Positions 426-64,000 of a stretch of 64,000 nucleotides of DNA are shown here, piece after piece (position 1 is the first letter of the stretch; every line of letters begins with the position of its first letter). The notes below the pieces were generated by a model. The model was not told the DNA's origin, did no database searches, and saw only the letters and a list, made by a program, of their open reading frames with translations. Location of the stretch: NCBI GenBank assembly GCA_022376925.1, contig JAIOJX010000006.1, positions 54,903,658 through 54,967,657 on the forward strand. The letters run 5' to 3'. This DNA is from Tragulus kanchil (Eukaryota > Chordata > Mammalia > Artiodactyla > Tragulidae). Made by a program: the position numbers and the translations under genes.

Positions 426-2613
426 TCATAGGAAATAGAACATAGGAGCTGAGTGAAGGATTATATGTGAAACATCTATTCCAGTTATCTCCTCACTCCC
501 AGCCCTCTTCTCACATACATAAACAGTTTAGCTCCAGTGGCTTCCTCCCAGAAAAGGTTCTTTCCTAAATAAATTGAGGAGAACGAAGGCTTTTAATTTA
601 GGTGTTGACATTGCATAGTAAACCTTTTCACACTGTTATGTAGGAAGTCCATAGCCTGACAACCAGCTCCTCCACTCACCCTAAATCAAGGTCTGCCAAT
701 GTGTGTGTCTCACCGATATTCACATGACTCTTGGTAAGTCTCCCATTCAGGGTAAACACCCATTAGCAAATCAATCTACTGATACAGAAGAAGTAGAAAT
801 TCATACAATGATCTGGATCAGCCTAACACTTGATTCTTAAATATGAGCAGAAAAATGGGAAACACTTGATGTCTAAAAACCATATGAACAAAACCCTTGA
901 TCACAGAATCACAGGGAATTTAGGAAATGGGAAAATCTTCAGAGAAATTTGAAATTATATTGTAGCTGTACAAGCACAATGCTATGGGAAAAGAACCATC
1001 AGTGAACAAGGAAGAGTTCATAAATTTAAAATGGCTGGTAGAAACAAGTTTTGTTTCTTCATAAAAGTAAAATCTTCAAAGTCAAGTGAAAGACATCTCC
1101 CATAGCTCAAAGAAAAATAAAACTTTCATCAGTTTTTTTTAAAAAAACAACATTTCTCTGGAGTAAATCTGGGCATAGAGAAGAAGGTAGGGTAGAAGAT
1201 GATTGATTTTTATCATAAAAGTTCTCATTGCCATTTGTTTTTTTTTTTGCCTGGTGCGTGGATCACTTTGATTTGATTTTTTTTTCCTATGATTTTATTT
1301 TTTACTATAAAATTTTTTCTCCCTCTATCTCCATATTTTGGGAGACATTTTTAGGTTTTTCTGTCATATCATTGGTTCAATGAAGTGTCACTTCTGCTTT
1401 CTACTGCTTCCAGTCAAGATTTTCAGGCTGCTAGTCCACTTTTATACTTTCCTTCATCTCTTTCCTGTTTTACAAAGAGCATTTTTTCTTTTTTCCTTTT
1501 TTTAATTTTTCCCTCCATCATAGGAAATAGAACATAGGAGCTGAGTGAAGGATTATATGTGAAACATCTATTCCAGTTATCTCCTCACTCCCAGCCCTCT
1601 TCTCACATACATAAACAGTTTAGCTCCAGTGGCTTCCTCCCAGAAAAGGTTCTTTCCTAAATAAATTGAGGAGAACGAAGGCTTTTAATTTAGGTGTTGA
1701 CATTGCATAGTAAACCTTTTCACACTGTTATGTAGGAAGTCCATAGCCTGACAACCAGCTCCTCCACTCACCCTAAATCAAGGTCTGCCAATGTGTGTGT
1801 CTCACCGATATTCACATGACTCTTGGTAAGTCTCCCATTCAGGGTAAACACCCATTAGCAAATCAATCTACTGATACAGAAGAAGTAGAAATTCATACAA
1901 TGATCTGGATCAGCCTAACACTTGATTCTTAAATATGAGCAGAAAAATGGGAAACACTTGATGTCTAAAAACCATATGAACAAAACCCTTGATCACAGAA
2001 TCACAGGGAATTTAGGAAATGGGAAAATCTTCAGAGAAATTTGAAATTATATTGTAGCTGTACAAGCACAATGCTATGGGAAAAGAACCATCAGTGAACA
2101 AGGAAGAGTTCATAAATTTAAAATGGCTGGTAGAAACAAGTTTTGTTTCTTCATAAAAGTAAAATCTTCAAAGTCAAGTGAAAGACATCTCCCATAGCTC
2201 AAAGAAAAATAAAACTTTCATCAGTTTTTTTTAAAAAAACAACATTTCTCTGGAGTAAATCTGGGCATAGAGAAGAAGGTAGGGTAGAAGATGATTGATT
2301 TTTATCATAAAAGTTCTCATTGCCATTTGTTTTTTTTTTTGCCTGGTGCGTGGATCACTTTGATTTGATTTTTTTTTCCTATGATTTTATTTTTTACTAT
2401 AAAATTTTTTTCTCCCTCTATCTCCATATTTTGGGAGACATTTTTAGGTTTTTCTGTCATATCATTGGTTCAATGAAGTGTCACTTCTGCTTTCTACTGC
2501 TTCCAGTCAAGATTTTCAGGCTGCTAGTCCACTTTTATACTTTCCTTCATCTCTTTCCTGTTTTACAAAGAGCATTTTTTCTTTTTTCCTTTTTTTAATT
2601 TTTCCCCCCATCA
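426..2613 (+). repeat. Tandem near-identical pair 1
   Basis: Copy A 426-1517, copy B 1518-2613, offset 1092, no filler. Internal differences are a one-T homopolymer change and one C/T change near the copy end. No gene is included. Confidence 0.95.
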
Positions 2614-2614
2614 T

Positions 2615-2860
2615 GCCTCTTTTATTTATATTTATTTTCATAACTTTTTAATTCTTTGGCATCTGTGGGCCTCCCATTGCAGTGGCCTCTCTAACTGCAG
2701 AGCACTGGCTCTGGGCTCATGCACTCCAAAGCATTAGCTTGTAATTGGACACACGGTTCCAGCCACTCCACGCCATGGGATCTGCCCAGATCAGGAATTG
2801 AACCTGTGTCCCTTGCCCTGCAAGGCAGACTCTTTACCCATTGGACCACCAGAGAAGCCC
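2615..2860 (-). mobile_element. CHR-type tRNA-Glu SINE
   Basis: Reverse-oriented ruminant/cetartiodactyl SINE. The + strand reads GGGCCTCCCATTGCAGTGG and ends in GAAGCCC, the reverse of the GGCTTCCCTGG head. The A-rich tail is seen as a T-rich run at 2617-2640. It starts right after tandem pair 426-2613 ends. Confidence 0.8.
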
Positions 2861-3510
2861 ACCAAGAGCATTTTTAATTCTCTTTTGTTACAATGCATCC
2901 TTTTGAATCTGCAGACATCAGGCAAGTGTCTTCTAATTTTTTAAATAAAAATTTGTTTTAGAACAATTTTACATTCATGGAAAAGTACAGTTTCCATATA
3001 CCTGAACCATTTTCCTCTATTAGTGACCAACTAGTATGGTACATTTGTTTCAATTAATGAGATAATGTGATAGTATTTAATTATATTTCAATTAATGAAA
3101 TAATATTGATACATTAACTAAAGTGCATACTCTATTAATATCTCTTTAGTTTTCACTTAATATTTTTTTTCTTATCCATGGTGCCAGCCAGGATGCCATA
3201 TTTTGTTTGTTTTATATCCTTAAGCTCCTTGGCTATAACAGTTTCTTAAACTTGTCTTTAATGACCTTTGCAATTTTCAGAAGTATAGGTCAGGTATTTT
3301 AGAGGAAGCCCATCTATTAGAATTTGTCCGATATTTTTCTTATGATTAGATTAGCGTGGGTTTAGGGGAGGAAGATCACAGAGATAAAATGCTATTCCCA
3401 CCACATTGTCTCAAGGGAACATCCTATCAACATGACTCACCATTATTGATGTTACCCTTGAGCACCTGGTTGAAGTAGCGTTTGTGAGATTTCTCCACTG
3501 CATATGTGTT

Positions 3511-3716
3511 TGTGTTAGTTGCTCAGTCATGTCCGACTATTTGTGACCCCATGGACAGCAGCCCACCAGGCTCCTCTGTCCATGGAACTCCCCAGGCACA
3601 AATACTGGAGTGGGTAGATGTTTCCTTCTCCAGATGATCTTCCTGACCCAGGGATCAAACCCAGGTCGCCTGCATTGCAGGCAGGCTCTTTACTGTCTAA
3701 ACTACCAGGGAAGCCC
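3511..3716 (-). mobile_element. Bov-tA SINE (copy 1)
   Basis: Reverse Bov-tA: TGTTAGTTGCTCAGTCATG, then GACCCCATGGACAGCAGCC, TCCTCTGTCCATGGAA and the tRNA-like end CTACCAGGGAAGCCC. Ruminant-specific. Repeated at 4638-4843. Confidence 0.88.
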
Positions 3717-4016
3717 TTTCCCCACTATAAATGTACTTTTTTCCCTCTACATAGTGTACTCATTTGGAAGGATGTGACTAGGCAGATCCCACACTCAATG
3801 GAGGATAACTATCCTCTGCCTTCTGGAGGGCTAAGTATATAAATTATTTGGCATTCTTCTCATGGGAGATTTGTGTATTCTTCCACATTTATTGATTGAT
3901 TCAGTCATGTGTATCAGTGTGGCTTATGGGTGTTTATTTTATAATTTGGGTTATATTCCAGTATTACTTTATTCTCTTGATCATACTATTCCAGGTTTGG
4001 CCATTGGGAGCTCTTT

Positions 4017-4353
4017 TTTATTGTTATTATTTTTTATTTTTAGCTATTCTGGGATTTCACTGCTGCTGCAGGCTCTTCTCTAATTTCAGGGAGTGAGGGC
4101 TCCTCTCTAGTTGAGGTCAGCAGGCTTCTTGTGATGACTTCTCTTGTGGAACTTTGGCTCTGGGGCACATGGGCTTCAATAGTCACATGAGCTCAATAGT
4201 TGTGGCTCTGAGGCTCTAGAGCACAGGCTCAGTAGTTGTAGCTCACAAGCTTAGTTGCTCCACAGCATGTGGAATCCTCCCAGACTTGGGATCAAACCTG
4301 TGTCTCCTGCATTGGCAGGCAGATTCTTTACCACTGAGCTACGAGGGAAACCC
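4017..4353 (-). mobile_element. Long CHR-type SINE with perfect TSD (copy 1)
   Basis: A tRNA-derived SINE in reverse orientation, ending CTGAGCTACGAGGGAAACCC. It is flanked by CCATTGGGAGCTCTTT at 4001-4016 and again at 4354-4369, a 16-bp perfect target-site duplication. The second copy of the whole unit is at about 5144-5480. Confidence 0.85.
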
Positions 4354-4637
4354 CCATTGGGAGCTCTTTCACTTAGCTTCTGTGTCCTTTGACATGCCCC
4401 AGTAAATGTGTTTTGTTTTGTTTCTGAGCAATTTTTTATTTTCTCGTACTTGAAGATGTACAGCCAGGCTCGTTTTATATATTTCCTGCCCCCATCCTAA
4501 AATCATTCATTTGTCCATGGAGCCCTGGTTTCTTTTACTGAAGAATGGTTTTTAGAAACCAAGATCTGGGAGCTAGGTGTTCTTGTTGTTACTGGGAACT
4601 TTCCCCTTTGCCCAGCAGGGCCCACTGCATATGTGTT

Positions 4638-4843
4638 TGTGTTAGTTGCTCAGTCATGTCCGACTATTTGTGACCCCATGGACAGCAGCCCACCAGGCTC
4701 CTCTGTCCATGGAACTCCCCAGGCACAAATACTGGAGTGGGTAGATGTTTCCTTCTCCAGATGATCTTCCTGACCCAGGGATCAAACCCAGGTCGCCTGC
4801 ATTGCAGGCAGGCTCTTTACTGTCTAAACTACCAGGGAAGCCC
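4638..4843 (-). mobile_element. Bov-tA SINE (copy 2)
   Basis: Identical to the element at 3511, shifted by 1127 bp in tandem pair 3495-5723. Confidence 0.86.
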
Positions 4844-5143
4844 TTTCCCCACTATAAATGTACTTTTTTCCCTCTACATAGTGTACTCATTTGGAAGGAT
4901 GTGACTAGGCAGATCCCACACTCAATGGAGGATAACTATCCTCTGCCTTCTGGAGGGCTAAGTATATAAATTATTTGGCATTCTTCTCATGGGAGATTTG
5001 TGTATTCTTCCACATTTATTGATTGATTCAGTCATGTGTATCAGTGTGGCTTATGGGTGTTTATTTTATAATTTGGGTTATATTCCAGTATTACTTTATT
5101 CTCTTGATCATACTATTCCAGGTTTGGCCATTGGGAGCTCTTT

Positions 5144-5480
5144 TTTATTGTTATTATTTTTTATTTTTAGCTATTCTGGGATTTCACTGCTGCTGCAGGC
5201 TCTTCTCTAATTTCAGGGAGTGAGGGCTCCTCTCTAGTTGAGGTCAGCAGGCTTCTTGTGATGACTTCTCTTGTGGAACTTTGGCTCTGGGGCACATGGG
5301 CTTCAATAGTCACATGAGCTCAATAGTTGTGGCTCTGAGGCTCTAGAGCACAGGCTCAGTAGTTGTAGCTCACAAGCTTAGTTGCTCCACAGCATGTGGA
5401 ATCCTCCCAGACTTGGGATCAAACCTGTGTCTCCTGCATTGGCAGGCAGATTCTTTACCACTGAGCTACGAGGGAAACCC
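5144..5480 (-). mobile_element. Long CHR-type SINE (copy 2)
   Basis: Same element and same target-site duplication as at 4017, offset by 1127 bp. That the TSD itself is copied shows that the duplication came after the SINE insertion. Confidence 0.83.
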
Positions 5481-6379
5481 CCATTGGGAGCTCTTTCACT
5501 TAGCTTCTGTGTCCTTTGACATGCCCCAGTAAATGTGTTTTGTTTTGTTTCTGAGCAATTTTTTATTTTCTCGTACTTGAAGATGTACAGCCAGGCTCGT
5601 TTTATATATTTCCTGCCCCCATCCTAAAATCATTCATTTGTCCATGGAGCCCTGGTTTCTTTTACTGAAGAATGGTTTTTAGAAACCAAGATCTGGGAGC
5701 TAGGTGTTCTTGTTGTTACTGGGGTATCCTTCCTTCAAGACCTACTCTGCTGACAAAGCAAGGAAATTTGTGTGTGTATACTAACCCCTGTATATTCATA
5801 TATCTGTAAGTATTCCTATATATAACCTTCTTTACCTGTATTAAGCTAAACATAAGATCATAATGATGTCTTCAGCTCTAATTCAGTGGATCATTTGACC
5901 TCCTTTCCTTGGAAACTCCTGCTCAAACATTGAGAAATGTGGCTTTCAGCAGGGGCAATCCATTTACTTATTATTTAGTTTCATCACAAGTGTGTATCAG
6001 TATCAGAATTGTTCATCTCTACCTTCATAGAAAATACCTTTTATCAACTGGAGTGTGTTTTTTGTTTGCCTTTAGTCTCATGGATTCTGCTTATTTCCAA
6101 ACTTCTTTTTATCTGGAATGTCATATTATAAAATGGTTTTCTGCCCTCTCTAGCACTGTGTATTTTTCGTTTTACCACACCATTATTTCAAGGGCCTCCA
6201 TATATCCTTCCATTGCTCTGTTTATTAATTCCTACTTGAATGTTGAGTGATCTGGTCAGGTGGACATTGCCAGTAGATGAGCTCAGGAAGTACTTGTATG
6301 CATAAACTTATGGCCAGTGTGTAAGATACACTTACAAGCAGACACATATCTGTGTTGTATATGATAGTATATGAAAATC

Positions 6380-7330: not shown

Positions 7331-7888
7331 TCTCTCAGGTACCTGAATATTGGCTCTATGTCTGAGGCTCATTGTGGAACTTTTCTCACTGCATGTATAT
7401 GTAGTCCATAAGTGCTTAGCCCAAGGCTGAGCATTATTGGAATCTTCTGGTAAGACAGATTTGAACTGCAGTTGGAGTTCTGTGCACGATGGAGCCTTTG
7501 AACAAGCTGATGGCCATCTCAAAACCTCAAAACCTGACTCCTTATGAACAAAGTGAAGTCCTGAGAACAGATATGTCTTGGCAGCAGGAAACCATCCCAG
7601 TCATGGAGACAGATGACTGTGAGGCCTCTCGTCAGAAGTTCAGGCATTTCCAGTATTTGGCAGTGTCTGGGCCTCGTGAAGCCCTGAGCCAGCTCTGGGA
7701 GCTCTGTCTTCAGTGGCTGAGACCAGAAATTCATACAAAGAAGCAGATCCTAGAGCTACTGGTGTTGGAACAATTCCTGAAAATTCTCCCTGAAGAAGTC
7801 AGGATTTGGGTGAATTTACAACATCCGAAGAAGAGCAAAGAAGTGGTGAGCCTCATAGAGGATCTGATTGATACGCTTGAAGATGAAG
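7331..7888 (+). CDS. ZNF215: ZNF215 exon with start codon and SCAN domain
   Basis: First coding exon of a SCAN-KRAB-C2H2 zinc-finger gene. A pyrimidine run ending in AG at 7329-7330 is a plausible acceptor. The ATG is at 7489, so 7331-7488 would be 5' UTR. Coding runs to 7888 (133 codons plus 1 nt) and ends at a GTGAGA donor, phase 1. Residues about 48-130 form a SCAN domain, with the [19 protein letters not shown] and [10 protein letters not shown] motifs and ILPEEVR. SCAN domains are dimerisation modules of transcription factors. The start [13 protein letters not shown] and MSWQQE segment match what I remember of human ZNF215, a SCAN+KRAB+4-finger protein of about 517 residues. The exon lies outside the duplicated segments and is single copy. 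I see no CpG-rich promoter upstream, so promoter and first non-coding exons are unplaced. Confidence 0.92.
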
Positions 7889-7947
7889 GTGAGAATATGG
7901 AAGATTGGAGATAGAATGGTTGACCGTTTCCTGTATGAGAAAAAAAA

Positions 7948-8590
7948 TCTTAAAAAAAATTTTATTGATATATAGTTGATGTAATAAGTTGCAAGTTATA
8001 ATGTTGTTGTTCATTCATTAAGTCGTGTCTGACTCTTTGCAACCCTAAGGACTACAGCATGCCAAGCTTCCCTGACCTTTTCTATCTCCCAGAGTTTGCT
8101 CAAACTTATGCCCATTGAGTCAGTGATACCCTCCAACCATCTCATCCTCTGTCACCCCCTTCTCCTGCCCTCATTCTTTCCCAGCACCAGGGTCTTTTCC
8201 AATAAGTTTGCTTATCACATCAGGTGACCAGTGTATCAGACCTTCAACTTAGCATCAGTCCTCCTAATATAGTGATTCACAGTTTTATAAGATGATACTC
8301 CATTTATAGTCATTATAAAATATTGGCTATATTCCTGTTGTATATCATTGTTACTTATTTTATATATAATAGTTTTTCCTTTTTAATCCTCTACCCCTTC
8401 ATTGCCCCTCCCCCATTCCCTCTTCCCACTGGTAACCACTCGTTCTCTATATCTGTGATTCTGTTTCTCTTTTGTTAGACTCAGTAATTTGTTGTATATT
8501 TTACATTTCACATGTAAATGATATCATAGAGTATTTGTCTTCCTCAGTCTGACTTACTTCACCTAGCATAGTAACTTTTTCTGAAGCTGA
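7948..8590 (-). mobile_element. L1 3' end, interrupted by BovB
   Basis: TTTTATTGATATATAGTTG before the BovB, and CCACTGGTAACCACTCG with CTTACTTCACCTAGCATA after it, are the reverse complement of a mammalian L1 3' region. The two halves are separated by the BovB at 8002-8270. Confidence 0.7.
8002..8270 (-). mobile_element. BovB LINE 3' fragment
   Basis: GTTGTTGTTCATTCATTAAG, GTCTGACTCTTTGCAACCC, CCATCTCATCCTCTGTC and GGGTCTTTTCCAAT are the reverse of the BovB (RTE) 3' end. It has inserted into an L1 tail. Confidence 0.85.
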
Positions 8591-8721
8591 ATGGTGTCAA
8601 AGGCCAGATCATGAAGAACTTTACTATGTTAGGAAGGCTGAATTGAGATCTGAGAGATTGAGTAGAGGAGTAAAGCAACTTGATTTGCCTTTCAAAAATA
8701 CTGTGTTGGTTTCATTGTAAA

Positions 8722-8935
8722 TCAGGGGTCAGCAAACTATGACCACAGGCCAAATATTTTTGGAATAAAGTTTTATTGGAACACAGGAACATCCCATTCA
8801 TTTACATTCTGTCTATATCTGCTTTTCTGCTATAACTGGAGTTGATTAGTTATAGCATTACCTGCAACGCCTAAATAAAATATTTACAATCTGGATTTTT
8901 AAAGGAAAACTTTATCAACTTCTATAGTAAAGGAT
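8722..8935. mobile_element. Ancient hAT-type MITE (copy 1)
   Basis: CAGGGGTCAGCAAACTATG, GGCCAAATATTTTTGGAA, AAGTTTTATTGGAACACAGG and TAAATAAAATATTTACAATC match a well-known old mammalian non-autonomous DNA transposon. I am unsure of the family name. Repeated at about 9915-10128. Confidence 0.6.
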
Positions 8936-9464
8936 AGTACTGAGAGCTCTGAAAATAGGAAAACTAGTTAGAAACTATTGTGATAGATTGAGTGTTAGAG
9001 AATGAGGGAGCATTGGGGAAAAGAGAGGAGTTTGAACCTAAAGGATTTACATATTAGGTGTGAATGGGATGAATGTTCTGGCTCACATGAATGAAGTATA
9101 AGTAACAGGTTTTGGTGGAGGGGAGATTGATACATTATTATGTGGCATGTTGAATTTGAGGTGTTTGTGGGACAGCCACAGTGAATTATCTCATATGTAA
9201 TTAACAGTAAGGTTTTTTTTTTTTTTTTTTAACAGTAAGGTTTTAATGTGCAGAAGTCAAGTAGTTTTTGTTGCTGCTGTAGCATGTTTCCATAAACTTG
9301 ATTGCTTTAAACATGAATATATAGCCCTACTTGTTGGTAGATCAGTGGGTCTCTCTGGGCTAAAATCAAGAAAGAAAAATATGAAAACTTATAGATATGA
9401 ACAGAAGTGGGAGGTATACAGATCCTTAGGAAGAATCAATATTTAAGAGCTGTCTTAGATCTAA

Positions 9465-9590
9465 CTCCTTGGAGGAAGAAATGACAACCCACACCAGTAC
9501 TGTTGCCTGTAAAATCCCATGGACAGAAGAGCCTGGTGGGCTACAGTCCGTGGGGTCCCAAAGAGTCGGACACAACTAAGTGACTGAGCA
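9465..9590 (+). mobile_element. BovA fragment (copy 1 of 3)
   Basis: Partial forward element: ACAACCCACACCAGTACTG, CCCATGGACAGAAGAGCC, AAAGAGTCGGACACAAC. It recurs at about 10657-10782 and 11801-11926, because two tandem pairs overlap here and make three copies. Confidence 0.82.
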
Positions 9591-10656
9591 CCCACATACG
9601 GAACTACCAATTATAGAAAGTATGGAGGATAGAGAAACATGTTAAACTATGCCACGGGAATGCCATTGGTAAAATCTAATCTGCCAGAAACTGCAGGACA
9701 ATCTAGTTTCTAAAACAAAATTCCAAGGGACTAGGGAGGGGGTGTGGAAGAGGGATTTAAGAGATTAAAAGAAACATTTAAGATATGTAACTGATCATGT
9801 GAATGCATGGAGCTTATGACAAATACCTGTTTGTTGGGGTTTCTGAGAGATTGAGTAGAGGAGTAAAGCAACTTGATTTGCCTTTCAAAAATACTGTGTT
9901 GGTTTCATTGTAAATCAGGGGTCAGCAAACTATGACCACAGGCCAAATATTTTTGGAATAAAGTTTTATTGGAACACAGGAACATCCCATTCATTTACAT
10001 TCTGTCTATATCTGCTTTTCTGCTATAACTGGAGTTGATTAGTTATAGCATTACCTGCAACGCCTAAATAAAATATTTACAATCTGGATTTTTAAAGGAA
10101 AACTTTATCAACTTCTATAGTAAAGGATAGTACTGAGAGCTCTGAAAATAGGAAAACTAGTTAGAAACTATTGTGATAGATTGAGTGTTAGAGAATGAGG
10201 GAGCATTGGGGAAAAGAGAGGAGTTTGAACCTAAAGGATTTACATATTAGGTGTGAATGGGATGAATGTTCTGGCTCACATGAATGAAGTATAAGTAACA
10301 GGTTTTGGTGGAGGGGAGATTGATACATTATTATGTGGCATGTTGAATTTGAGGTGTTTGTGGGACAGCCACAGTGAATTATCTCATATGTAATTAACAG
10401 TAAGGTTTTTTTTTTTTTTTTTAACAGTAAGGTTTTAATGTGCAGAAGTCAAGTAGTTTTTGTTGCTGCTGTAGCATGTTTCCATAAACTTGATTGCTTT
10501 AAACATGAATATATAGCCCTACTTGTTGGTAGATCAGTGGGTCTCTCTGGGCTAAAATCAAGAAAGAAAAATATGAAAACTTATAGATATGAACAGAAGT
10601 GGGAGGTATACAGATCCTTAGGAAGAATCAATATTTAAGAGCTGTCTTAGATCTAA

Positions 10657-10782
10657 CTCCTTGGAGGAAGAAATGACAACCCACACCAGTACTGTTGCCT
10701 GTAAAATCCCATGGACAGAAGAGCCTGGTGGGCTACAGTCCGTGGGGTCCCAAAGAGTCGGACACAACTAAGTGACTGAGCA
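10657..10782 (+). mobile_element. BovA fragment (copy 2 of 3)
   Basis: Same fragment as at 9465; middle copy, shared by tandem pairs 8650-11018 and 10603-12879. Confidence 0.8.
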
Positions 10783-11800
10783 CCCACATACGGAACTACC
10801 AATTATAGAAAGTATGGAGGATAGAGAAACATGTTAAACTATGCCACGGGAATGCCATTGGTAAAATCTAATCTGCCAGAAACTGCAGGACAATCTAGTT
10901 TCTAAAACAAAATTCCAAGGGACTAGGGAGGGGGTGTGGAAGAGGGATTTAAGAGATTAAAAGAAACATTTAAGATATGTAACTGATCATGTGAATGCAT
11001 GGAGCTTATGACAAATACATGAGGCAACTGACTGGATATTTGACTAAGAATTATTAATTAGAGATAGTAACGATATTGGTGTTGGGGTTATGTTTAGTCC
11101 TTATCTTAAAAGTAAGTGAAGGACTGAGCAAAATAAGAGCACTCAAGGTAAGCAGGCTAGAAAAGAGTAATCCGGAAAGTCAAAGAACCAGGAGAAGTTG
11201 GTGTCTTGAGTTTAAAAAGAAGAAATCTTCAAGAAAGGGAGTGTTCAACACTGTTGCAACAAAAATATCCTGTTAAAATAAGTACTGAAAATAATTTTTT
11301 TTATTGTTGATTAGATCACTGGGTCTGCCTAGGCTAAAAATCAAAGCATCAGCAGGACTTCATTTCTTTCTGGGCCTCATGCTCTCTTTCCCCATCTTCA
11401 AAGCTGGCAACAGAGCACTGAGTCCTTTTCACACAGCCATCTCTCTGACACTCCATTCTGTTGTCCTGGTGTGTGCTGCCACACACACACATACTCACAC
11501 TCACTCTTTCACTCTGTCTTACTGACCACAGCTGGGAAAGGTTCTCTGCTTTTCAGGATTCATGTGATTAGAGTGAGACCACCCAGATAATCCATAATTA
11601 TTTCTTCATCTCAAAGATCTTTAACGTTAATGTTGATGTGTCCTTTCTGCCATGTATCCAAGGGTTAGGGTATGAATATCTTAGGGGGGCTATTATTCTT
11701 CCTATCACATGGGTCAAAAATATATGAAGTGACAAGGTTGGTAGATGAGGTATACAGATCCTTAGGAAGAATCAATATTTAAGAGCTGTCTTAGATCTAA

Positions 11801-11926
11801 CTCCTTGGAGGAAGAAATGACAACCCACACCAGTACTGTTGCCTGTAAAATCCCATGGACAGAAGAGCCTGGTGGGCTACAGTCCGTGGGGTCCCAAAGA
11901 GTCGGACACAACTAAGTGACTGAGCA
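11801..11926 (+). mobile_element. BovA fragment (copy 3 of 3)
   Basis: Same fragment as at 9465; third copy, in the second half of tandem pair 10603-12879. Confidence 0.8.
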
Positions 11927-12879
11927 CCCACATACGGAACTACCAATTATAGAAAGTATGGAGGATAGAGAAACATGTTAAACTATGCCACGGGAATGCC
12001 ATTGGTAAAATCTAATCTGCCAGAAACTGCAGGACAATCTAGTTTCTAAAACAAAATTCCAAGGGACTAGGGAGGGGGTGTGGAAGAGGGATTTAAGAGA
12101 TTAAAAGAAACATTTAAGATATGTAACTGATCATGTGAATGCATGGAGCTTATGACAAATACATGAGGCAACTGACTGGATATTTGACTAAGAATTATTA
12201 ATTAGAGATAGTAACGATATTGGTGTTGGGGTTATGTTTAGTCCTTATCTTAAAAGTAAGTGAAGGACTGAGCAAAATAAGAGCACTCAAGGTAAGCAGG
12301 CTAGAAAAGAGTAATCCGGAAAGTCAAAGAACCAGGAGAAGTTGGTGTCTTGAGTTTAAAAAGAAGAAATCTTCAAGAAAGGGAGTGTTCAACACTGTTG
12401 CAACAAAAATATCCTGTTAAAATAAGTACTGAAAATAATTTTTTTTATTGTTGATTAGATCACTGGGTCTGCCTAGGCTAAAAATCAAAGCATCAGCAGG
12501 ACTTCATTTCTTTCTGGGCCTCATGCTCTCTTTCCCCATCTTCAAAGCTGGCAACAGAGCACTGAGTCCTTTTCACACAGCCATCTCTCTGACACTCCAT
12601 TCTGTTGTCCTGGTGTGTGCTGCCACACACACACATACTCACACTCACTCTTTCACTCTGTCTTACTGACCACAGCTGGGAAAGGTTCTCTGCTTTTCAG
12701 GATTCATGTGATTAGAGTGAGACCACCCAGATAATCCATAATTATTTCTTCATCTCAAAGATCTTTAACGTTAATGTTGATGTGTCCTTTCTGCCATGTA
12801 TCCAAGGGTTAGGGTATGAATATCTTAGGGGGGCTATTATTCTTCCTATCACATGGGTCAAAAATATATGAAGTGACAA

Positions 12880-15088
12880 TGTGATAATAGGTCACAAATA
12901 CATGAGGTGAGAGGATGACAATGATTATAGAGTATTCCTGAGAAGTTTCACTGGAAGGAAATGAGAGATTGCAGGGTAATTTAGGACCGGAAAAGGCTTT
13001 TGGCTTGTTTTAATGTACCATCGATACCTAAAGAACCCACTTACAGGATTTGCCCTTATTTTACCTCTCAGGACCAAAAAGGCTACCTGGCTAGCATTTG
13101 TTAAAAAGCATTTAATGAAAACTGTATTAGCTACTGCCACTTGGGACAGCAAGTAAACAGCTGGGACAAACACAAACTAAACAAAAAGATTGGGAGGAAA
13201 GATTCTTTAGGGAGTTAGGGATTTGAAAGCTCCCACATAATCTAAAGAGTTCTAGGAGGCTGGGTATGTGTTCTAAAAGACCTGAGGATTCCTTGATTCT
13301 CACCTCTGGCCAGCCTTCAGGCTTTGCTCAAGCAGAAAGTGAAGACTAAGGCAGAGGTGATAGTTACCTGGCTAAGTGTTGAAGGCATTTACTCATGCAG
13401 ACACCCCATCTACAAAGGCTGGGAAGTGGTTTGGGGTTTTTTTTTCCCTCCCCTGGTTTCATTTAAGGAAATCTCTGCAGAATCGCTAGCTAACCACTAA
13501 ACTAACGAAACACACTTTAAGTGGGCACACACAAAAAAGAATATAGGCTTTATAAAAAATTTTTTTTAATTTTGGCCTCTTGTATTGGTTTTTTATTTAT
13601 TTATTTTCATCCATGTTTATTCTTTGGCCTGTGTGGGCCTCCCATTGCAGTGGCCTCGTTGCAGAGCACCGGCTCTGGGCACGTGTGCTCCAGAGCTCTG
13701 GCTCACAACTGGACACACTGGTCCAGCCACTCCGCAGCACATGGGATCCTCCCAGACCAGGGATCAAACCGTTGCCCCTTGCATCGCAAGGTGGACTCTT
13801 TATCCACTGGACCAACAGGGAAGCCCTAGGCTTTATAAATTTTTTAAGAAGTTGAAAAGATTAGCAACATTGATAAAAGTTTAGCTACAGTGACCAAGAA
13901 AAAGACTAAAATCACTGAGATCAGGAATAAAGGTAGGGACATTATTACTGAACTTGCATAAATCAAAGAGGACACTGTGAAAACTTAGATGAAATAGAAG
14001 AATTTCCTAAAACTGCCCAAACTAACTGAGATTGTAATTTTAAGAATTTCAACCAAGTAAAAAATCTTCAAGAGGAAGTAGGACTGGAGAAAGTATGAAT
14101 ATATCTAAGTAACTACCAAGACCATACTAGTAGAGGGTGAGAAGAGGTGGCTTTGGTGGGCAAGATCCATTTTAAATTAGAAGGGAGAATATATTAAAGA
14201 ACTTGAGAATGTATCAGTATATGAATTTTTCTTGGAATGGCATGAGAGTTTCAGAGAACAGAATAAGGTTTAGGAAGGAGGTCAACATTGAAGAAGAGTT
14301 ATGGGAAGGAAACAATACTCAGTGAGAATGATAAAAAAAAAAAAGTGGATGGTTGATTAAAGACTTTTGTATCTTTTCCAGGTGTCTTGCGTATTTCCAA
14401 GAATGACAAGACTGAAAAATATATAGTCACTGTCCGAGGGATTATGGGACTGAGCAAACTGAGGTTCCATAAAGTATTATAGGCCTGAATAAAATTGACA
14501 GACTGTAATCTTATGGCAATATTCAAATGACATGTTGCTGAAAAATTTGGATTTCTTTTTTCATTTCTGCCTTTAGTTACTAAATGGTCTCAAAAATGTT
14601 TCCTGTATTGTTTCTGCTTTTTCTTATTTCACGCTGAATCAATAAAATTTCTTTACAGACCATTATTGGTCCATAATCTGGCATTTGAGTATTAGTGGTA
14701 TAATTAAGGGATCTTGGAGTAACATTAGAAAGTAGCCCTTGGGTATATGTCTCACCAAAGGGCTGGAGAAGGGAATTGGTTGCTGCAAAGATTCTTATGT
14801 CCTAAAAGACTCAGTAGTCCAATGTAACCAGACTGCCTGTGTTTGTATGTAGTATACACAGAGAAACTTAGACGAAAGGAATCCTTGAGTAGAGTAGTCC
14901 CCAAGGTTTTTGAAGAAGTGGTTGGCTATGTAAAATATTCTTAGCTCCCAGTAGAATCACAGCCTGTGGTGGCTGAGCCTTAATTAGCATTTAGTTTGGA
15001 CAAGAATAAAGTTACTGGTTTTTTTTTTTTTTCAGTTCTGCTATAACCACAGATGAGACATCAAAGTATTATTTTGGCCCTCTTATCT
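12880..15088. other. ZNF215 intron 1, unduplicated part
   Basis: Apart from the CHR-type SINE at 13557-13826, I recognise nothing here. Confidence 0.5.
13557..13826 (-). mobile_element. CHR-type SINE with TSD
   Basis: Reverse SINE: GTGTGGGCCTCCCATTGC, CCAGAGCTCTGGCTCAC, ending CAACAGGGAAGCCC. It is flanked by TAGGCTTTATAAA at 13544-13556 and 13827-13839, a 13-bp perfect target-site duplication. All ORFs over it are SINE translations. Confidence 0.86.
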
Positions 15089-15090
15089 CT

Positions 15091-15340: not shown

Positions 15341-15456
15341 GAGGAATTTGACATTTTTTTGAAATTTCTGAAGTAGCATGATGAAGCTACTATAATTAGT
15401 AGAAGTTTCCCCAGGGAAAAGTTTGCCTCCCTAATGTTTTCCTTCATCTTCTTCAG

Positions 15457-18012: not shown

Positions 18013-18165
<153 letters not shown>

Positions 18166-19098: not shown

Positions 19099-19251
<153 letters not shown>

Positions 19252-51171: not shown

Positions 51172-53570
51172 AGACTTCCTATTCTTTGATTTTATTTTAT
51201 GTTTTGGAAAATATGTGCTTTTTTAGTTCTTTTAGTTGCAATTAACTTCTAAAAAAATTAGACCTTTATTTCTCATAAATGTTAAAGTCAAGATATAATG
51301 AATCCATGCTATTTAAGACCAGAAATGTAATATACTTTATTTTGCTGTCCTTCCCTCACCTGGTTGCCAGAGTTAGCAAATAAAAACACATGGCTGTTAA
51401 GTTTGAATTTTATATAAGCAAATGTTTTCTTAGCATAAGTTCCATTCAATATTTAGGACATACTTATACTAAAAAAAGATTATTTTATATCTGAAAATCA
51501 AACCTAACTGGGTGTCCTAGATTCCTTTATCTGATAATCCTAATGTTCAATCCATACTTATTATATAATGTTTTATACTCAGCATTTCTGTGTTAAATAT
51601 TTCCTTGCACACTATTTAACATTTCTGAAGTTTTATAAACAAATTAACAATTATTCAGACTTAACCGCATATTTAACTGATTTCAGTGTTTGTTACCAGT
51701 TCCTTTACACTATGGCCTACACATTTGAGCTCTCTTTAAGAAACGTACATATCTGGTATGCTTCCTCTTTTCCTGTTTATCTAATCTGTTACTTATACAT
51801 GGAAAAAGACAATTCAGTGATAAGAAAAAATATAGGTGATAACAGATTTTTCAATCTCACAGTCATGAGGGTGTTATACCACTGTCTTTTGACATTTACT
51901 ATTGCAGAGGTCTGCATCCATTCTCCCTTTCAGGTTTTATAGATAACCAGAATTTTTCCACATCTCTAGTGCCTGAACCTATGAATACATATGTAAAACT
52001 GGGTAGGAGAATGTGTGGGGTGTATTATGGTAATGCCAGAGTATAGCTCCCTGGCAAGAAAAGGATGGTTCTTGAGTTTTCTGGTTAATAGAAATAACAT
52101 CTCTAAGATATCCTGTCTTGAATAAAGGGAAATACAATGTTTTCTGATCTTTTGTCATATGCATTTGTAATTTACTGGTTAATTCATCTTTAGTTAATTC
52201 TTCCATATTTGAGAACAGATTGTATACCAGTTTGAGTTTCAAGTTATTTGTGTTTTCAATTTTTTTTTTCTGTCGTTTCCTAGGACTTTACAGGTGAGTC
52301 AAGATGCTATTCATTGACAGCTAGCTAATTTCAATTCAAACCAAAATATAAGTAAGTAAAGTTTTCCAAATATTGAGAAACAGACTTCCTATTCTTTGAT
52401 TTTATTTTATGTTTTGGAAAATATGTGCTTTTTTAGTTCTTTTAGTTGCAATTAACTTCTAAAAAAATTAGACCTTTATTTCTCATAAATGTTAAAGTCA
52501 AGATATAATGAATCCATGCTATTTAAGACCAGAAATGTAATATACTTTATTTTGCTGTCCTTCCCTCACCTGGTTGCCAGAGTTAGCAAATAAAAACACA
52601 TGGCTGTTAAGTTTGAATTTTATATAAGCAAATGTTTTCTTAGCATAAGTTCCATTCAATATTTAGGACATACTTATACTAAAAAAAGATTATTTTATAT
52701 CTGAAAATCAAACCTAACTGGGTGTCCTAGATTCCTTTATCTGATAATCCTAATGTTCAATCCATACTTATTATATAATGTTTTATACTCAGCATTTCTG
52801 TGTTAAATATTTCCTTGCACACTATTTAACATTTCTGAAGTTTTATAAACAAATTAACAATTATTCAGACTTAACCGCATATTTAACTGATTTCAGTGTT
52901 TGTTACCAGTTCCTTTACACTATGGCCTACACATTTGAGCTCTCTTTAAGAAACGTACATATCTGGTATGCTTCCTCTTTTCCTGTTTATCTAATCTGTT
53001 ACTTATACATGGAAAAAGACAATTCAGTGATAAGAAAAAATATAGGTGATAACAGATTTTTCAATCTCACAGTCATGAGGGTGTTATACCACTGTCTTTT
53101 GACATTTACTATTGCAGAGGTCTGCATCCATTCTCCCTTTCAGGTTTTATAGATAACCAGAATTTTTCCACATCTCTAGTGCCTGAACCTATGAATACAT
53201 ATGTAAAACTGGGTAGGAGAATGTGTGGGGTGTATTATGGTAATGCCAGAGTATAGCTCCCTGGCAAGAAAAGGATGGTTCTTGAGTTTTCTGGTTAATA
53301 GAAATAACATCTCTAAGATATCCTGTCTTGAATAAAGGGAAATACAATGTTTTCTGATCTTTTGTCATATGCATTTGTAATTTACTGGTTAATTCATCTT
53401 TAGTTAATTCTTCCATATTTGAGAACAGATTGTATACCAGTTTGAGTTTCAAGTTATTTGTGTTTTCAATTTTTTTTTTCTGTCGTTTCCTAGGACTTTA
53501 CAGGTGAGTCAAGATGCTATTCATTGACAGCTAGCTAATTTCAATTCAAACCAAAATATAAGTAAGTAAA
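51172..53570 (+). repeat. Tandem near-identical pair 18
   Basis: Copy A 51172-52360, copy B 52382-53570, offset 1210, 21 bp of filler. No difference was noticed inside. It contains a 124-residue ORF twice, which I do not take as a gene. Confidence 0.95.
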
Positions 53571-53935
53571 TGTTTTGAAGTCAGTGAAGACACAAAGCTG
53601 AACATAAAGTTATGATTTCATGCACATGAAGATGCACAGGAAAAAAGACTTAGAATGAAACAAGATGAAAAGTTTTCTTGACTCATTTATATATTTTATA
53701 ATGACTATGTATAATATTTATGGTAGAAAAAGAAAATACACTTTAAAATACCCTCCTAAGGATCTCCTCTTTAAGCAAATGATTCTTACTGGGATTTAGA
53801 GGAAATTATAAATATTCTTTGGGATTATTTGGGTTATTTATAGATTCTTTATCCAGCAGCATTTACTAGGCTTAAAGTGAAGCTCTAATTAAAGCTGTTA
53901 TAACAAAATGAACTGAACTGTAAGGTATCTCTTCT

Positions 53936-55611
53936 TCAGTTATTGTGAAGATGTGAATTCTGATTAAACCCCTTGTAATACTCATGGCATTTATGAATTT
54001 TGTCTTCTGTATGGACTCTCTGATGAATTCGAAGAGCTGAACTATGGCTGAAACCCTTACCACACTTAGCACATTGATAAGGCTTCTCTCCTGTGTGGAT
54101 CCTCTGATGAATATGAAGATTTGAACTGTGACTAAAGCCCTTTCCACAGTCATCACATTTATAGGGTTTTTCTCCCGTATGGACCCTCTGATGAATGAGA
54201 AGATGTGAACGCTGACTGAAGCCCTTCCCACACTGTTCACATTTATAGGGTTTCTCTCCAGTATGTACTCTTTGATGAGTGTGAAGTTTTGAACTCTTGC
54301 TGAAGCCCTTCCCACATTCATGACAAATATAGGGTTTCTCCCCTGTATGGACCCTCTGATGAATGCGAAGATCTGAGCTGTGACTAAAGTTCTTCCCACA
54401 CTCATCACACTTGTAAGGCTTCTCTCCTGTATGCACTCTCTGATGGATTTGAAGATTTGAGCGCTGGGTAAACCCCTTACCACAGTCACCACATTTATAG
54501 GACTTTTCTCCCGTGTGGACTAACTGATGAATTCGAAGATTTGAGCTCTGACTGAAGCCCTTACCACACTCATCACACTTATATGGCTTCTCTCCGGTGT
54601 GGACTCTCTGATGAATATGAAGTACTGAACTCCGACTAAAATTCTTACCACACTGATCACACTTAAAAGGTTTCTCTCCTATATGAAGTCTCTGGTGAAT
54701 GTGAAGCAGTGAATTTCTACTAAGGTCCTGATCATAATGCAGTCTGTAGGGCTCCTCTTCTGTGTGGACTCTCTGATGACAGTGAAGTCTGGGGATCTGA
54801 CTGAAGTTCTTACCACACATATTACATATATGAGGTACCTCCCCTGGGTGGACTCCCTGATGAAAGTGAACACCGAAATTCTGACTAAAGTTACTGGCAA
54901 CTTCGTCACATATGTACAGCTTCTTACCTGTGTGGATTCTTGGATGTCTGTATAGATCTGATCTCTGAGGGAAGCATGCTGTACTGATGGAGCATGGATG
55001 GAACTTTTCTCCAAGTTGATTTCTATCATGGAGAACACACTGTGAGTTCCAAGAATAAATTTCTTTACATTTTTTACATCCACAGTACTTCTTTTCCATA
55101 GAGCCTGTCAGCAGGTCATTTGGGCATATCTCCCCAGAGTATTCTGGAAGGCCTTCCTCTCTTGGGATAAACGAATGCTGAACTATGAATGTCTGTGCTT
55201 TTTCCATTGAGAGATTCTTTCTGGATATGCCAACATGGTATCTGCATCTTTGAAAACCACATGAATCACTCACATAGATTTCTCTACCGTCACCTTCAGT
55301 GTGTTTGATTTCTAAGGACTGACAAGGCATACACTTGGTATATTTTAAGTTCCTGGGACCTTTGCTTTCTAAAGTTAGTTCATAGTTCTCACACCCTGGC
55401 ACTTTTGTCGAGAGTGTTGACCATTCTTGATAGTGAGAAAGATGTTGCTGCTTTAGGTCTTTGTAATCTATACCTTGAACCATTTCCACATACTTTTCAT
55501 TCTCATATATCTGAGTACTGGTAGTCCTCCAGCCTTGCCAGCAGGAAAGATTTTCATGTTCTAAATACCTGAATCTTTCTTCTTGAGGTCTGCAGCTCTC
55601 TTTCCAATTTC
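53936..55611 (-). CDS. ZNF214: ZNF214 terminal exon, C2H2 finger array
   Basis: Large terminal exon on the - strand. A TTTTTTTAG acceptor precedes 55611, and the stop TGA is at 53938-53936. It joins the KRAB exon in phase 1 and supplies residues 43-600 (human about 606). Intact C2H2 fingers lie at residues about 304-324 and then eight in register from 360 to 576, every 28 residues, with HTGEKPY linkers. Decayed finger units lie at about 248-268 (second Cys is Ser), 276-296 (second Cys lost), 332-352 (both Cys lost) and the C-terminal [10 protein letters not shown] unit. The pattern of intact and decayed fingers and the [14 protein letters not shown] ending match what I remember of human ZNF214. 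Predicted role: nuclear sequence-specific DNA-binding repressor. The 5' 768 nt of the exon recur at 55991-56758. Confidence 0.95.
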
Positions 55612-57137
55612 CTAAAAAAATAAGCAGATAATCCCGTGATGAGAGCTTTGTTTAAAAATGTCCAACTATCTCAGTCAACAAGCTCCAGAATTATAGGAAA
55701 ATACGTGTAGGCACAAGTGAGAAAGAAGTATGACTTAGGCAGCCCCATATTTGAGCATGAATTTCATTTGTTTATTCATTCATAGATGTATTCATTTACT
55801 CATTCATTTAACAAATATATCTTGGGCATCTACTACTTACCAAGTACTGTCAGAAATAAAAGAGAAAGTGACTGGCTTCAAGGAAATAGTCTTAAAGACT
55901 GAGATTTAATTAGATTATTCTCTTTGGGAATTTATTATAAGAGAATATTGTTTCTATTTTTCTAAAATAGTCTAGTAGATTGTGTGAAAACTGGGTGGAC
56001 TCCCTGATGAAAGTGAACACCGAAATTCTGACTAAAGTTACTGGCAACTTCGTCACATATGTACAGCTTCTTACCTGTGTGGATTCTTGGATGTCTGTAT
56101 AGATCTGATCTCTGAGGGAAGCATGCTGTACTGATGGAGCATGGATGGAACTTTTCTCCAAGTTGATTTCTATCATGGAGAACACACTGTGAGTTCCAAG
56201 AATAAATTTCTTTACATTTTTTACATCCACAGTACTTCTTTTCCATAGAGCCTGTCAGCAGGTCATTTGGGCATATCTCCCCAGAGTATTCTGGAAAGCC
56301 TTCCTCTCTTGGGATAAACGAATGCTGAACTATGAATGTCTGTGCTTTTTCCATTGAGAGATTCTTTCTGGATATGCCAACATGGTATCTGCATCTTTGA
56401 AAACCACATGAATCACTCACATAGATTTCTCTACCGTCACCTTCAGTGTGTTTGATTTCTAAGGACTGACAAGGCATACACTTGGTATATTTTAAGTTCC
56501 TGGGACCTTTGCTTTCTAAAGTTAGTTCATAGTTCTCACACCCTGGCACTTTTGTCGAGAGTGTTGACCATTCTTGATAGTGAGAAAGATGTTGCTGCTT
56601 TAGGTCTTTGTAATCTATACCTTGAACCATTTCCACATACTTTTCATTCTCATATATCTGAGTACTGGTAGTCCTCCAGCCTTGCCAGCAGGAAAGATTT
56701 TCATGTTCTAAATACCTGAATCTTTCTTCTTGAGGTCTGCAGCTCTCTTTCCAATTTCCTAAAAAAATAAGCAGATAATCCCGTGATGAGAGCTTTGTTT
56801 AAAAATGTCCAACTATCTCAGTCAACAAGCTCCAGAATTATAGGAAAATACGTGTAGGCACAAGTGAGAAAGAAGTATGACTTAGGCAGCCCCATATTTG
56901 AGCATGAATTTCATTTGTTTATTCATTCATAGATGTATTCATTTACTCATTCATTTAACAAATATATCTTGGGCATCTACTACTTACCAAGTACTGTCAG
57001 AAATAAAAGAGAAAGTGACTGGCTTCAAGGAAATAGTCTTAAAGACTGAGATTTAATTAGATTATTCTCTTTGGGAATTTATTATAAGAGAATATTGTTT
57101 CTATTTTTCTAAAATAGTATAGTAGATTGTGTGAAAA
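54844..57137 (+). repeat. Tandem near-identical pair 19
   Basis: Copy A 54844-55990, copy B 55991-57137, offset 1147, no filler. Copies the 5' part of the ZNF214 finger exon plus intron. Confidence 0.95.
55991..56758 (-). pseudogene. ZNF214: Duplicate 5' part of ZNF214 finger exon
   Basis: Second copy of the first 768 nt of the terminal ZNF214 exon, including its acceptor. It is cut off after the [10 protein letters not shown] region, before any intact finger, where the sequence jumps to intron DNA of copy 1. One amino-acid difference is seen (EEGFPEYSG here, EEGLPEYSG in the full exon), from a single C/T change. Its ORF reads a few false residues past the junction before a stop. Most likely an assembly duplicate; the single change could be a haplotype difference. 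Confidence 0.85.
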
Positions 57138-57329
57138 AGCTCTCTGCTTTATCTACATCTTTGGGTGTTCCTCTTACATACTGATTCTAGGGTTAGCCAC
57201 ATAATTTTCTTTGGCGACTGGGACAAAATTTTAAGACAAGCAGAAATGTGAAATGTACTTGTGCACTGTGGTTGGCCTCTCTTGATGGTTTTTAAAGTCC
57301 TGTGATCACCATCATATAAATCAGCCTTG

Positions 57330-57558
57330 GCTGGGAAGAGAGACATAGGGTCAACACATGACCTTTATAACACTGATATTGACCAACTGCCAGACATGTG
57401 AGTCAGGCTATCCAGCTTTATCTTAGACCATCTAGCCCCAGTCAGTGTTACTCCATGATAGAAAATCCATCAAACATCATGAAAAATAACAAAGTTTATT
57501 TTAAGTTACTAAGTTTGGGGTAGTTTGTTATATAGCAGAAACTAACTTGTACAAATAG
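57330..57558 (+). mobile_element. MaLR-type LTR 3' fragment (duplicated)
   Basis: CAACTGCCAGACATGTGAG, CATCTAGCCCCAGTCAG, TTAAGTTACTAAGTTTGGGG and TTTGTTATATAGCAGAAAC match the 3' half of MLT1-like LTRs. It lies in the ZNF214 intron. A second copy is at about 58468-58696 through tandem pair 56969-59242. Confidence 0.55.
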
Positions 57559-57821
57559 AACACAAAGAACAAATTTAGGACTGCACAAAATTACACATGG
57601 AAATCTGTGCTTTAAGGGTAATCTATAAAATATTAAGAAGAAGAATCACAAATATCTATTAATTACATAGCCAAAATATTTTGGAAGATATCTTGCTTTC
57701 TTTATCTTCTATTTTTCACATGATTTAAGACCCAGTTTTGAGACTCTCTTTTACCTCAATGCAACAATCATTTAAAAAGCAAAATACTCAACAAAACTGG
57801 TCCCAGGAGAAACTAACCTTA

Positions 57822-58121
<300 letters not shown>

Positions 58122-58959
58122 TTACCAAGTACTGTCAGAAATAAAAGAGAAAGTGACTGGCTTCAAGGAAATAGTCTTAAAGACTGAGATTTAATTAGAT
58201 TATTCTCTTTGGGAATTTATTATAAGAGAATATTGTTTCTATTTTTCTAAAATAGTATAGTAGATTGTGTGAAAAAGCTCTCTGCTTTATCTACATCTTT
58301 GGGTGTTCCTCTTACATACTGATTCTAGGGTTAGCCACATAATTTTCTTTGGCGACTGGGACAAAATTTTAAGACAAGCAGAAATGTGAAATGTACTTGT
58401 GCACTGTGGTTGGCCTCTCTTGATGGTTTTTAAAGTCCTGTGATCACCATCATATAAATCAGCCTTGGCTGGGAAGAGAGACATAGGGTCAACACATGAC
58501 CTTTATAACACTGATATTGACCAACTGCCAGACATGTGAGTCAGGCTATCCAGCTTTATCTTAGACCATCTAGCCCCAGTCAGTGTTACTCCATGATAGA
58601 AAATCCATCAAACATCATGAAAAATAACAAAGTTTATTTTAAGTTACTAAGTTTGGGGTAGTTTGTTATATAGCAGAAACTAACTTGTACAAATAGAACA
58701 CAAAGAACAAATTTAGGACTGCACAAAATTACACATGGAAATCTGTGCTTTAAGGGTAATCTATAAAATATTAAGAAGAAGAATCACAAATATCTATTAA
58801 TTACATAGCCAAAATATTTTGGAAGATATCTTGCTTTCTTTATCTTCTATTTTTCACATGATTTAAGACCCAGTTTTGAGACTCTCTTTTACCTCAATGC
58901 AACAATCATTTAAAAAGCAAAATACTCAACAAAACTGGTCCCAGGAGAAACTAACCTTA

Positions 58960-59268
<309 letters not shown>

Positions 59269-59289
59269 TCAAGTGGTTAAATAATGTAT

Positions 59290-61310: not shown

Positions 61311-62114
61311 CTAACTGCTGCTGTACGTCCTAAGCAGAAGTTAAAAACAACTTGTGAAGCATGATAAATCAAGATCTGGGATCATACATACCTTTAAACA
61401 ACAAAACTCTGTAAAAGTAAAATAAAAATTAAAAAAAAAAGATTTCCATATACAGCCATATTATTTTAATATAGAAGGGAAAAGGAAGATCTGAAATATT
61501 CAAGGATTCAAAATATACCACCCAGGTACCATTTTTCCAATAAACTGAATAAAAATCCATGCCTAAAAAGTGAAACATTAATCACAAATATGAATGCAAG
61601 AATGAAAAAATTCAGTGCTATTTATAAATGTTTGTACATGCTAAAAATTTGAAAACACATATAAATAAATATATAAATAAGAAAACTGGGATCCACAGAA
61701 GCTGACAAACTGGTGCCAGTATGAGAAATAAATGAACTCATTGTCCTTCATTTTTTAAAATGTACAGTGTATAAAAACCCAGTTTGTTGTTACTGGTTTT
61801 GATAATCATTTTAACAAAGATCTAAGAATTTATTTTTTAAATATACTAGAGAGTAAGAGTTTAGTCTCTTTTGCTGAAAGGAAGTTCATAAAAATTATAA
61901 CAATGTTAAAGTAATATAAGTAAAAGTTAAAAGTCTACCCTCCCCAAATAACTTAATAACCACTGTTGCTTTCATTGTGTCCTTTCTGACCTTATTTTCA
62001 TACATACATACCCCACTAACTTTTTTTCATAACAAAGACATAATTCTGCAGTTCACTTTTTCATGCAATATATAGTATATAACTTCCCATTTCAGTACAT
62101 ATAGGCCTGTGTTA

Positions 62115-62662
62115 TTTTTAGGGATTTTAAAATATGTCCCAATATTATTTGATACCCTTCCCCTCAAATGGTGGAGCCCAATTCCCTGCTCCTTGAATGT
62201 GGCCTGGTCTTAGGACTTACTTATGAATAAGAAAAAAAGCAGAAGGAGAAGCATTGGTGTGTAGCTTTCAAGACTAGCCCATAAAAGGCCCTGACTGCAG
62301 CTTTTTATTCTTGGATCAGTCACTCTGGGAGAAGCTACCTAAAATGCCATGAGAATACCTAGGCAGCCCTGTGGAGAGGCCCATGTCATGAGGAACTGAG
62401 GCCTCTATCGTCAGTGAGAAATGAGGCATCTGCCAACAGCCGTGTAAGTGAACCACTTAGAAATGAAGCCGCAGTGAAGCCTTCCAATGGACTGTGGTCA
62501 TGCTAATGGCTTTGACTGCAAGCTCATAAGAAGCCCTGAGCCAGAAACACACTGTGACGCTCCCAGATTCCTGACTCTTAGAAACTGAGTGAGATAATAA
62601 ATGTTTGTTATTTTTAAAAGCTGTGAAATATAATTTATTATGCAGAAATAGATGACTAATAT
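62115..62662 (+). mobile_element. MaLR (MLT1-like) solo LTR (copy 1)
   Basis: Shows the ERVL-MaLR LTR signature: CTCCTTGAATGTGGCCTGG, CATAAAAGGCCCTGACTGC, CCTGAGCCAGAAACAC and GAGATAATAAATGTTTGTT near the 3' end. It is ancient and diverged. An identical copy sits at 63261-63808 through tandem pair 61640-63932. No coding sequence. Confidence 0.7.
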
Positions 62663-63260
62663 ATTGTTGTAAAAGTTGCACAGCATTTCACATTATAATG
62701 TTCTAAAATTTAACTGTTTCCATACTAATGAACGTTGAGATTATTTCCACTTGGCTTTCCACTCTGGCTATTATAACATAGCAGTGCTAAAAATTTGAAA
62801 ACACATATAAATAAATATATAAATAAGAAAACTGGGATCCACAGAAGCTGACAAACTGGTGCCAGTATGAGAAATAAATGAACTCATTGTCCTTCATTTT
62901 TTAAAATGTACAGTGTATAAAAACCCAGTTTGTTGTTACTGGTTTTGATAATCATTTTAACAAAGATCTAAGAATTTATTTTTTAAATATACTAGAGAGT
63001 AAGAGTTTAGTCTCTTTTGCTGAAAGGAAGTTCATAAAAATTATAACAATGTTAAAGTAATATAAGTAAAAGTTAAAAGTCTACCCTCCCCAAATAACTT
63101 AATAACCACTGTTGCTTTCATTGTGTCCTTTCTGACCTTATTTTCATACATACATACCCCACTAACTTTTTTTCATAACAAAGACATAATTCTGCAGTTC
63201 ACTTTTTCATGCAATATATAGTATATAACTTCCCATTTCAGTACATATAGGCCTGTGTTA

Positions 63261-63808
63261 TTTTTAGGGATTTTAAAATATGTCCCAATATTATTTGATA
63301 CCCTTCCCCTCAAATGGTGGAGCCCAATTCCCTGCTCCTTGAATGTGGCCTGGTCTTAGGACTTACTTATGAATAAGAAAAAAAGCAGAAGGAGAAGCAT
63401 TGGTGTGTAGCTTTCAAGACTAGCCCATAAAAGGCCCTGACTGCAGCTTTTTATTCTTGGATCAGTCACTCTGGGAGAAGCTACCTAAAATGCCATGAGA
63501 ATACCTAGGCAGCCCTGTGGAGAGGCCCATGTCATGAGGAACTGAGGCCTCTATCGTCAGTGAGAAATGAGGCATCTGCCAACAGCCGTGTAAGTGAACC
63601 ACTTAGAAATGAAGCCGCAGTGAAGCCTTCCAATGGACTGTGGTCATGCTAATGGCTTTGACTGCAAGCTCATAAGAAGCCCTGAGCCAGAAACACACTG
63701 TGACGCTCCCAGATTCCTGACTCTTAGAAACTGAGTGAGATAATAAATGTTTGTTATTTTTAAAAGCTGTGAAATATAATTTATTATGCAGAAATAGATG
63801 ACTAATAT
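63261..63808 (+). mobile_element. MaLR (MLT1-like) solo LTR (copy 2)
   Basis: Same LTR as at 62115, repeated with an offset of 1146 bp in the second half of tandem pair 61640-63932. Confidence 0.68.
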
Positions 63809-64000
63809 ATTGTTGTAAAAGTTGCACAGCATTTCACATTATAATGTTCTAAAATTTAACTGTTTCCATACTAATGAACGTTGAGATTATTTCCACTTGG
63901 CTTTCCACTCTGGCTATTATAACATAGCAGTGAACAACTCTCTTAAACATATCATGGAACACTCATTTGTAATATTTCTAGAAAATACATTTCCAGAATA

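Follow-up and report, generated by a model that had tools for sequence, protein, structure and literature searches.

Gene content and repeat pairs of the window

The window, the whole stretch of 64,000 bases of DNA analysed here, harbours coding exons of ZNF215 and of ZNF214 on opposite strands (Table 1). The SCAN exon of ZNF215 is recognized by Pfam, and a search of solved structures with this exon equally retrieved SCAN-domain proteins. The last exon of ZNF215 at 25076-25987 (+) shares 75-79% identity with pecoran ZNF215 and, in a tree built on this one exon only, the window adjoins (96/96), from the outside, a five-row clade (100/100) which includes muntjac, bison, oryx and sheep; the source may thus be a chevrotain (Tragulidae).

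Self-BLAST of the window identifies 21 adjacent direct pairs of more than 900 bp with 99.1-100% identity, from 426-2614 through 61639-63932, five of them with copies A and B free of any difference; chance is not possible as the cause of pairs longer than 1 kb with identity above 99%. The A copies span 1020-1194 bases (mean 1100, SD 47), the shortest B copy has 1016 bases, and the offsets within pairs, determined with gaps, range from 1006 to 1210 (mean 1112, SD 47) with a sum of 23,348. Within the window, neither gap letters (N) nor, in the self-comparison at E 1e-20, inverted matches of at least 95% identity were found. In total, 69.8% of the window falls within copy A or copy B, and the redundant sequence, the total of the B copies, amounts to 23,099 bases or 36% of the window. 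The initial annotation, which had described 21 adjacent, near-identical, direct pairs of nearly uniform length with summed offsets of about 23.4 kb, roughly 36% of the window, is thus borne out in these respects. The upper end of its offset range of 1001 to 1210 stands, with the lowest value dependent on the aligner (1001 ungapped versus 1006 gapped). Its statement that all are in exactly two copies is not fully correct: in six of the 20 neighbouring pairs, 157-416 bp of copy B also belong to the next copy A, and these short stretches are present three times. In collapsed sequence, the pairs follow each other at intervals of about 2 kb (20 offsets) and imply pieces of 1849-5205 bp (about 1.85-5.2 kb) that tile the window with neighbour overlaps of at most 416 bp.

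A separate direct repeat of about 400 bp (82% identity, offset 1033) has diverged further than the 21 pairs; as a guess, it might represent the two LTRs of an old element.

Table 1. Coding exons, repeat pairs and a further repeat in the window. Coordinates of the pairs are from self-BLAST and gapped alignment of copies A and B, with the strand given as "."
Feature	Position	Strand	Remarks
ZNF215	7489..25987	+	coding exons by tblastn; name from database relatives
ZNF215 SCAN exon	7489-7905	+	Pfam SCAN; single
ZNF215 exon 2	at 15456 and 16535	+	doubled (pair 5)
ZNF215 KRAB exon	at 18013 and 19099	+	doubled (pair 6)
ZNF215 exon 4	19783-19884	+	single
ZNF215 last exon	24029-24430 and 25118-25987	+	first cut, second full (pair 8)
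ZNF214	53936..59148	-	name from database relatives
ZNF214 last exon	53936-55651 and 55992-56798	-	first a full open frame, second cut (pair 19)
ZNF214 KRAB exon	57846-58010 and 58984-59148	-	doubled (pair 20)
Pair 1	426..2614	.	A 426-1521, B 1518-2614; copies overlap by 4 bases at the join
Pair 2	3495..5723	.	A 3495-4596, insert of 25 bases, B 4622-5723; identical
Pair 3	8649..11018	.	A 8649-9826, insert of 15 bases, B 9842-11018
Pair 4	10603..12879	.	A 10603-11735, B 11747-12879; identical; 416 bp in common with pair 3, hence threefold
Pair 5	15089..17203	.	A 15089-16123, B 16170-17203; ZNF215 coding exon 2 doubled; 46-base insert resembles the sequence after B (gapped)
Pair 6	17214..19353	.	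A 17214-18267, B 18301-19353; ZNF215 KRAB exon doubled
Pair 7	21498..23633	.	A 21498-22556, B 22575-23633; identical
Pair 8	23357..25518	.	A 23357-24423, B 24445-25518; join within ZNF215 last coding exon; A frame-broken, B open
Pair 9	26187..28327	.	A 26187-27255, B 27258-28327
Pair 10	29911..32131	.	A 29911-31020, B 31021-32131
Pair 11	32537..34719	.	A 32537-33625, B 33633-34719
Pair 12	34894..36971	.	A 34894-35935, B 35928-36971
Pair 13	39181..41402	.	A 39181-40272, B 40311-41402; 38-base insert resembles both outer flanks (gapped)
Pair 14	41159..43366	.	A 41159-42239, B 42286-43366; 46-base insert resembles the flank before A (gapped)
Pair 15	43114..45391	.	A 43114-44251, B 44252-45391; 4 bases lacking close to the start of B and 6 close to the end of A
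Pair 16	46706..48914	.	A 46706-47811, B 47812-48914
Pair 17	48758..50779	.	A 48758-49777, B 49764-50779; 5 bases lacking close to the start of B
Pair 18	51172..53576	.	A 51172-52365, B 52382-53576
Pair 19	54844..57137	.	A 54844-55990, B 55991-57137; ZNF214 last exon doubled and cut
Pair 20	56969..59242	.	A 56969-58104, B 58107-59242; identical; ZNF214 KRAB exon doubled
Pair 21	61639..63932	.	A 61639-62786, B 62785-63932; identical
Separate direct repeat	28649-29045 and 29682-30065		82% identity

Doubled exons, joins and differences between copies

Five of the seven coding exons found across ZNF215 and ZNF214 are doubled as a whole or in part. The hippopotamus, pilot whale and galago ZNF214 proteins (three of three tried) each align to the two KRAB exon copies with one and the same stretch, and likewise to the two copies of the last exon. 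Equally, among the four ZNF215 proteins tried, with the table limited to E 1e-6 and more than 60% identity, one stretch of the muntjac, bison and sheep protein matches both copies of all three doubled exons; the sperm whale protein does so for the KRAB exon only, with exon 2 and the cut last exon absent at this cut-off. Copy A of the ZNF215 last exon shows a frame break followed by a stop within about 100 bases of the join, and copy B maintains an open frame into four zinc fingers.

Differences that follow a duplication are expected to be spread over the unit, with loss of bases equal in either copy. In the window, 49 of the 68 differing columns lie at most 100 columns from a block end, in a zone that comprises 4,200 of 23,121 columns (18%; binomial p 4e-22). 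The block start in copy B corresponds to the start of the next piece and the block end in copy A to the end of the previous piece. Single-sided gaps are polarised along these lines: at block starts, 17 bases are absent from B and one from A, and at block ends, 17 bases are absent from A and none from B (Fisher p 4e-9 by column, 3e-6 by event). As columns within one pair are not independent, the cautious figure is the count of pair-zones, with 14 of 15 non-zero zones agreeing in sign (p 0.001); these zones stem from 10 of the 21 pairs, with most missing bases held by pairs 8, 15 and 17 and the five identical pairs silent. Since alignments stop where similarity fails, the analysis was repeated without the outermost 10, 20 and 30 columns, which gave p values of 2e-16, 1e-11 and 4e-5 for the enrichment at ends and of 5e-8, 2e-5 and 0.018 for the polarity. 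The clustered missing bases with their polarity thus characterize the piece ends as being of lower quality with bases lost, like ragged consensus ends; end-clustered, directional gaps, contributed by 10 of the 21 pairs, are typical of poor piece ends rather than of mutation. Furthermore, the frame-broken copy of the last exon of ZNF215 ends at the join, so that the poorer of the two copies is the one at the tail of the left piece, in agreement with the polarity.

The 18,921 inner columns contain seven substitutions and 12 gap columns; the seven substitutions may be heterozygous sites or consensus errors. If heterozygous, they could be accommodated by a heterotype false duplication, with polymorphic segments retained side by side as two diverged haplotypes, which according to excerpts of two reports is a known event in vertebrate assemblies (PMC9516828; PMC2864568). 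This origin is nevertheless very unlikely, as the copies are 99.1-100% identical with five of the 21 pairs exact, the differences cluster with a polarity at piece ends rather than spreading along the length as haplotype differences would, and polymorphism would not be expected to produce a uniform length.

At the joins, 13 of the 21 pairs carry an insert of 2-46 bases, four are blunt and four have copies sharing 2-14 bases. The 11 inserts longer than six bases were aligned with gaps to the outer flanks and compared with 60 shuffles each. Three of them (pairs 5, 13 and 14) score above all 60 shuffles as a continuation of an outer flank, and the remaining eight score no better than their own shuffles against either flank. 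In the flank-like inserts (three of 11), either the left piece extends into the sequence that follows B, or the right piece extends backwards into that preceding A.

Joins with 0-14 shared bases or inserts of 2-46 bases would suit end joining as well, as in a real and recent locus-wide burst of tandem duplications of about 1.1 kb with almost identical copies. Such a burst is, however, exceedingly improbable in light of the uniform size of 21 units within 64 kb, the differences that are not spread along the unit, the missing bases polarised at block ends, and the cut and doubled exons of two genes, both copies of which are matched by a single protein stretch in relatives.

The copies resemble overlapping pieces joined untrimmed, and the 21 pairs thus very probably reflect a computer error instead of biology, an assembly artefact in which the overlaps of pieces would have been concatenated rather than merged. 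Pieces of 1.85-5.2 kb with ends overlapping by about 1.0-1.2 kb would have been joined without trimming, in line with the initial annotation, which had proposed contigs of about 2-5 kb joined with overlaps of about 1.1 kb left uncollapsed. That proposal had been argued mainly from the uniform size; the piece lengths agree with it, and polarised gaps, flank-like inserts and doubled exons have since been added in its favour. Perhaps the pieces are consensus units of one long-read contig layout sharing a node, and not independent contigs.

Known false duplications and candidate sources of the overlaps

Judged from their sequence, the pairs would belong with assembly false duplications, of the homotype rather than the haplotype sort. 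Homotype false duplication, a term of the Vertebrate Genomes Project, designates near-identical, under-collapsed copies that arise from read or consensus error and not from haplotype divergence and that can mimic the gain of a gene or exon (excerpts of PMC9516828). It is recognized there by depth below the haploid level or a lack of one-copy k-mers, and by a gap between the copies on the scaffold. The window copies likewise are near-identical without allelic divergence; they differ in being serial, adjacent and of almost fixed length at about every 2 kb of collapsed sequence. The joins consist of inserts, blunt ends or overlaps in a window free of N. On the other hand, the false segmental duplications of diploid assemblies (Kelley and Salzberg, 2010; PMC2864568, in excerpt) equally constitute a vertebrate mis-assembly that resembles recent duplication, but have divergent haplotypes as their cause, whereas the copies in the window are almost identical.

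The overlaps would most likely originate from a long-read assembler of the wtdbg/wtdbg2 type with the consensus made unit by unit, where adjacent consensus units would have in common a graph node of about 1,024 bases (four bins of 256) and the step meant to trim the shared node at each join would have failed; we give this source, comprising both the assembler and the failed trimming step, roughly an even chance. In wtdbg, each unit has one vertex in common with the next, and vertices that are neighbours can overlap, at most by 256 bases; the "1024 segments" of wtdbg2 are taken here as segments 1,024 bases long. With a shared vertex and a vertex overlap of at most 256 bases, untrimmed joins would yield blocks no shorter than about 1,024 bases and pieces no shorter than about 1,800 bases, as observed: the A copies start from 1020 and the B copies from 1016 bases, an overlap of about one node (1024) or more, and the shortest piece has 1849 bases. 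Speaking against the node model, copy A has a mean of 1100 and not 1024 bases, and blocks reach 1194 bases. A period near 256 bases, as expected from offsets in multiples of a bin, was likewise absent from the 20 unit offsets (best resultant 0.42 versus a null 95% point of 0.61), a comparison of low power that ragged ends may blur.

Excerpts of the literature describe that wtdbg2 cuts reads into "1024 segments", which are merged into vertices (PMC10391896), uses bins of 256 bp (PMC11831799), and writes the layout with edge sequences before a separate program makes the consensus (PMC8434745; PMC9915519); wtdbg has been used for the sika deer assembly (PMC10372904, in excerpt). The likeness of the window to these vertices and bins (PMC10391896; PMC11831799, both in excerpt) thus lies in the floor of the block length and in shortest pieces that fit units sharing one vertex, and the difference in blocks of up to 1194 bases without a 256-base period. 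Among the matches listed, none describes this exact assembler failure in its title or the opening of its abstract, the excerpted text of PMC7483855 contains nothing on it, and no Tragulus appears among the matches listed for a chevrotain assembly made with wtdbg.

The same class of artefact might instead have another source, which we regard as somewhat less likely than not: contig or scaffold ends with 1 kb overlaps that a scaffolder or gap filler working with anchors of about 1 kb left in place, or a draft assembly of clones whose contigs had not been merged. Such a source would account equally well for overlaps, poor ends and inserts, and the window is devoid of gap letters as after gap filling; by itself, though, it leaves the length floor of about 1,020 bp and the shortest pieces of about 1.85 kb unexplained.

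Consequences for users of the assembly

The signature of untrimmed overlaps, serial direct pairs of about 1.02-1.2 kb with bases missing close to where A ends and where B starts, is readable from the letters alone, and assemblies can thus be screened for it without reads. As a very probable artefact, the redundant 36% of the window would double five of the seven coding exons in two genes and fake a recent segmental duplication. The pairs themselves would carry no biology; their value would be as a warning for those who use the assembly.
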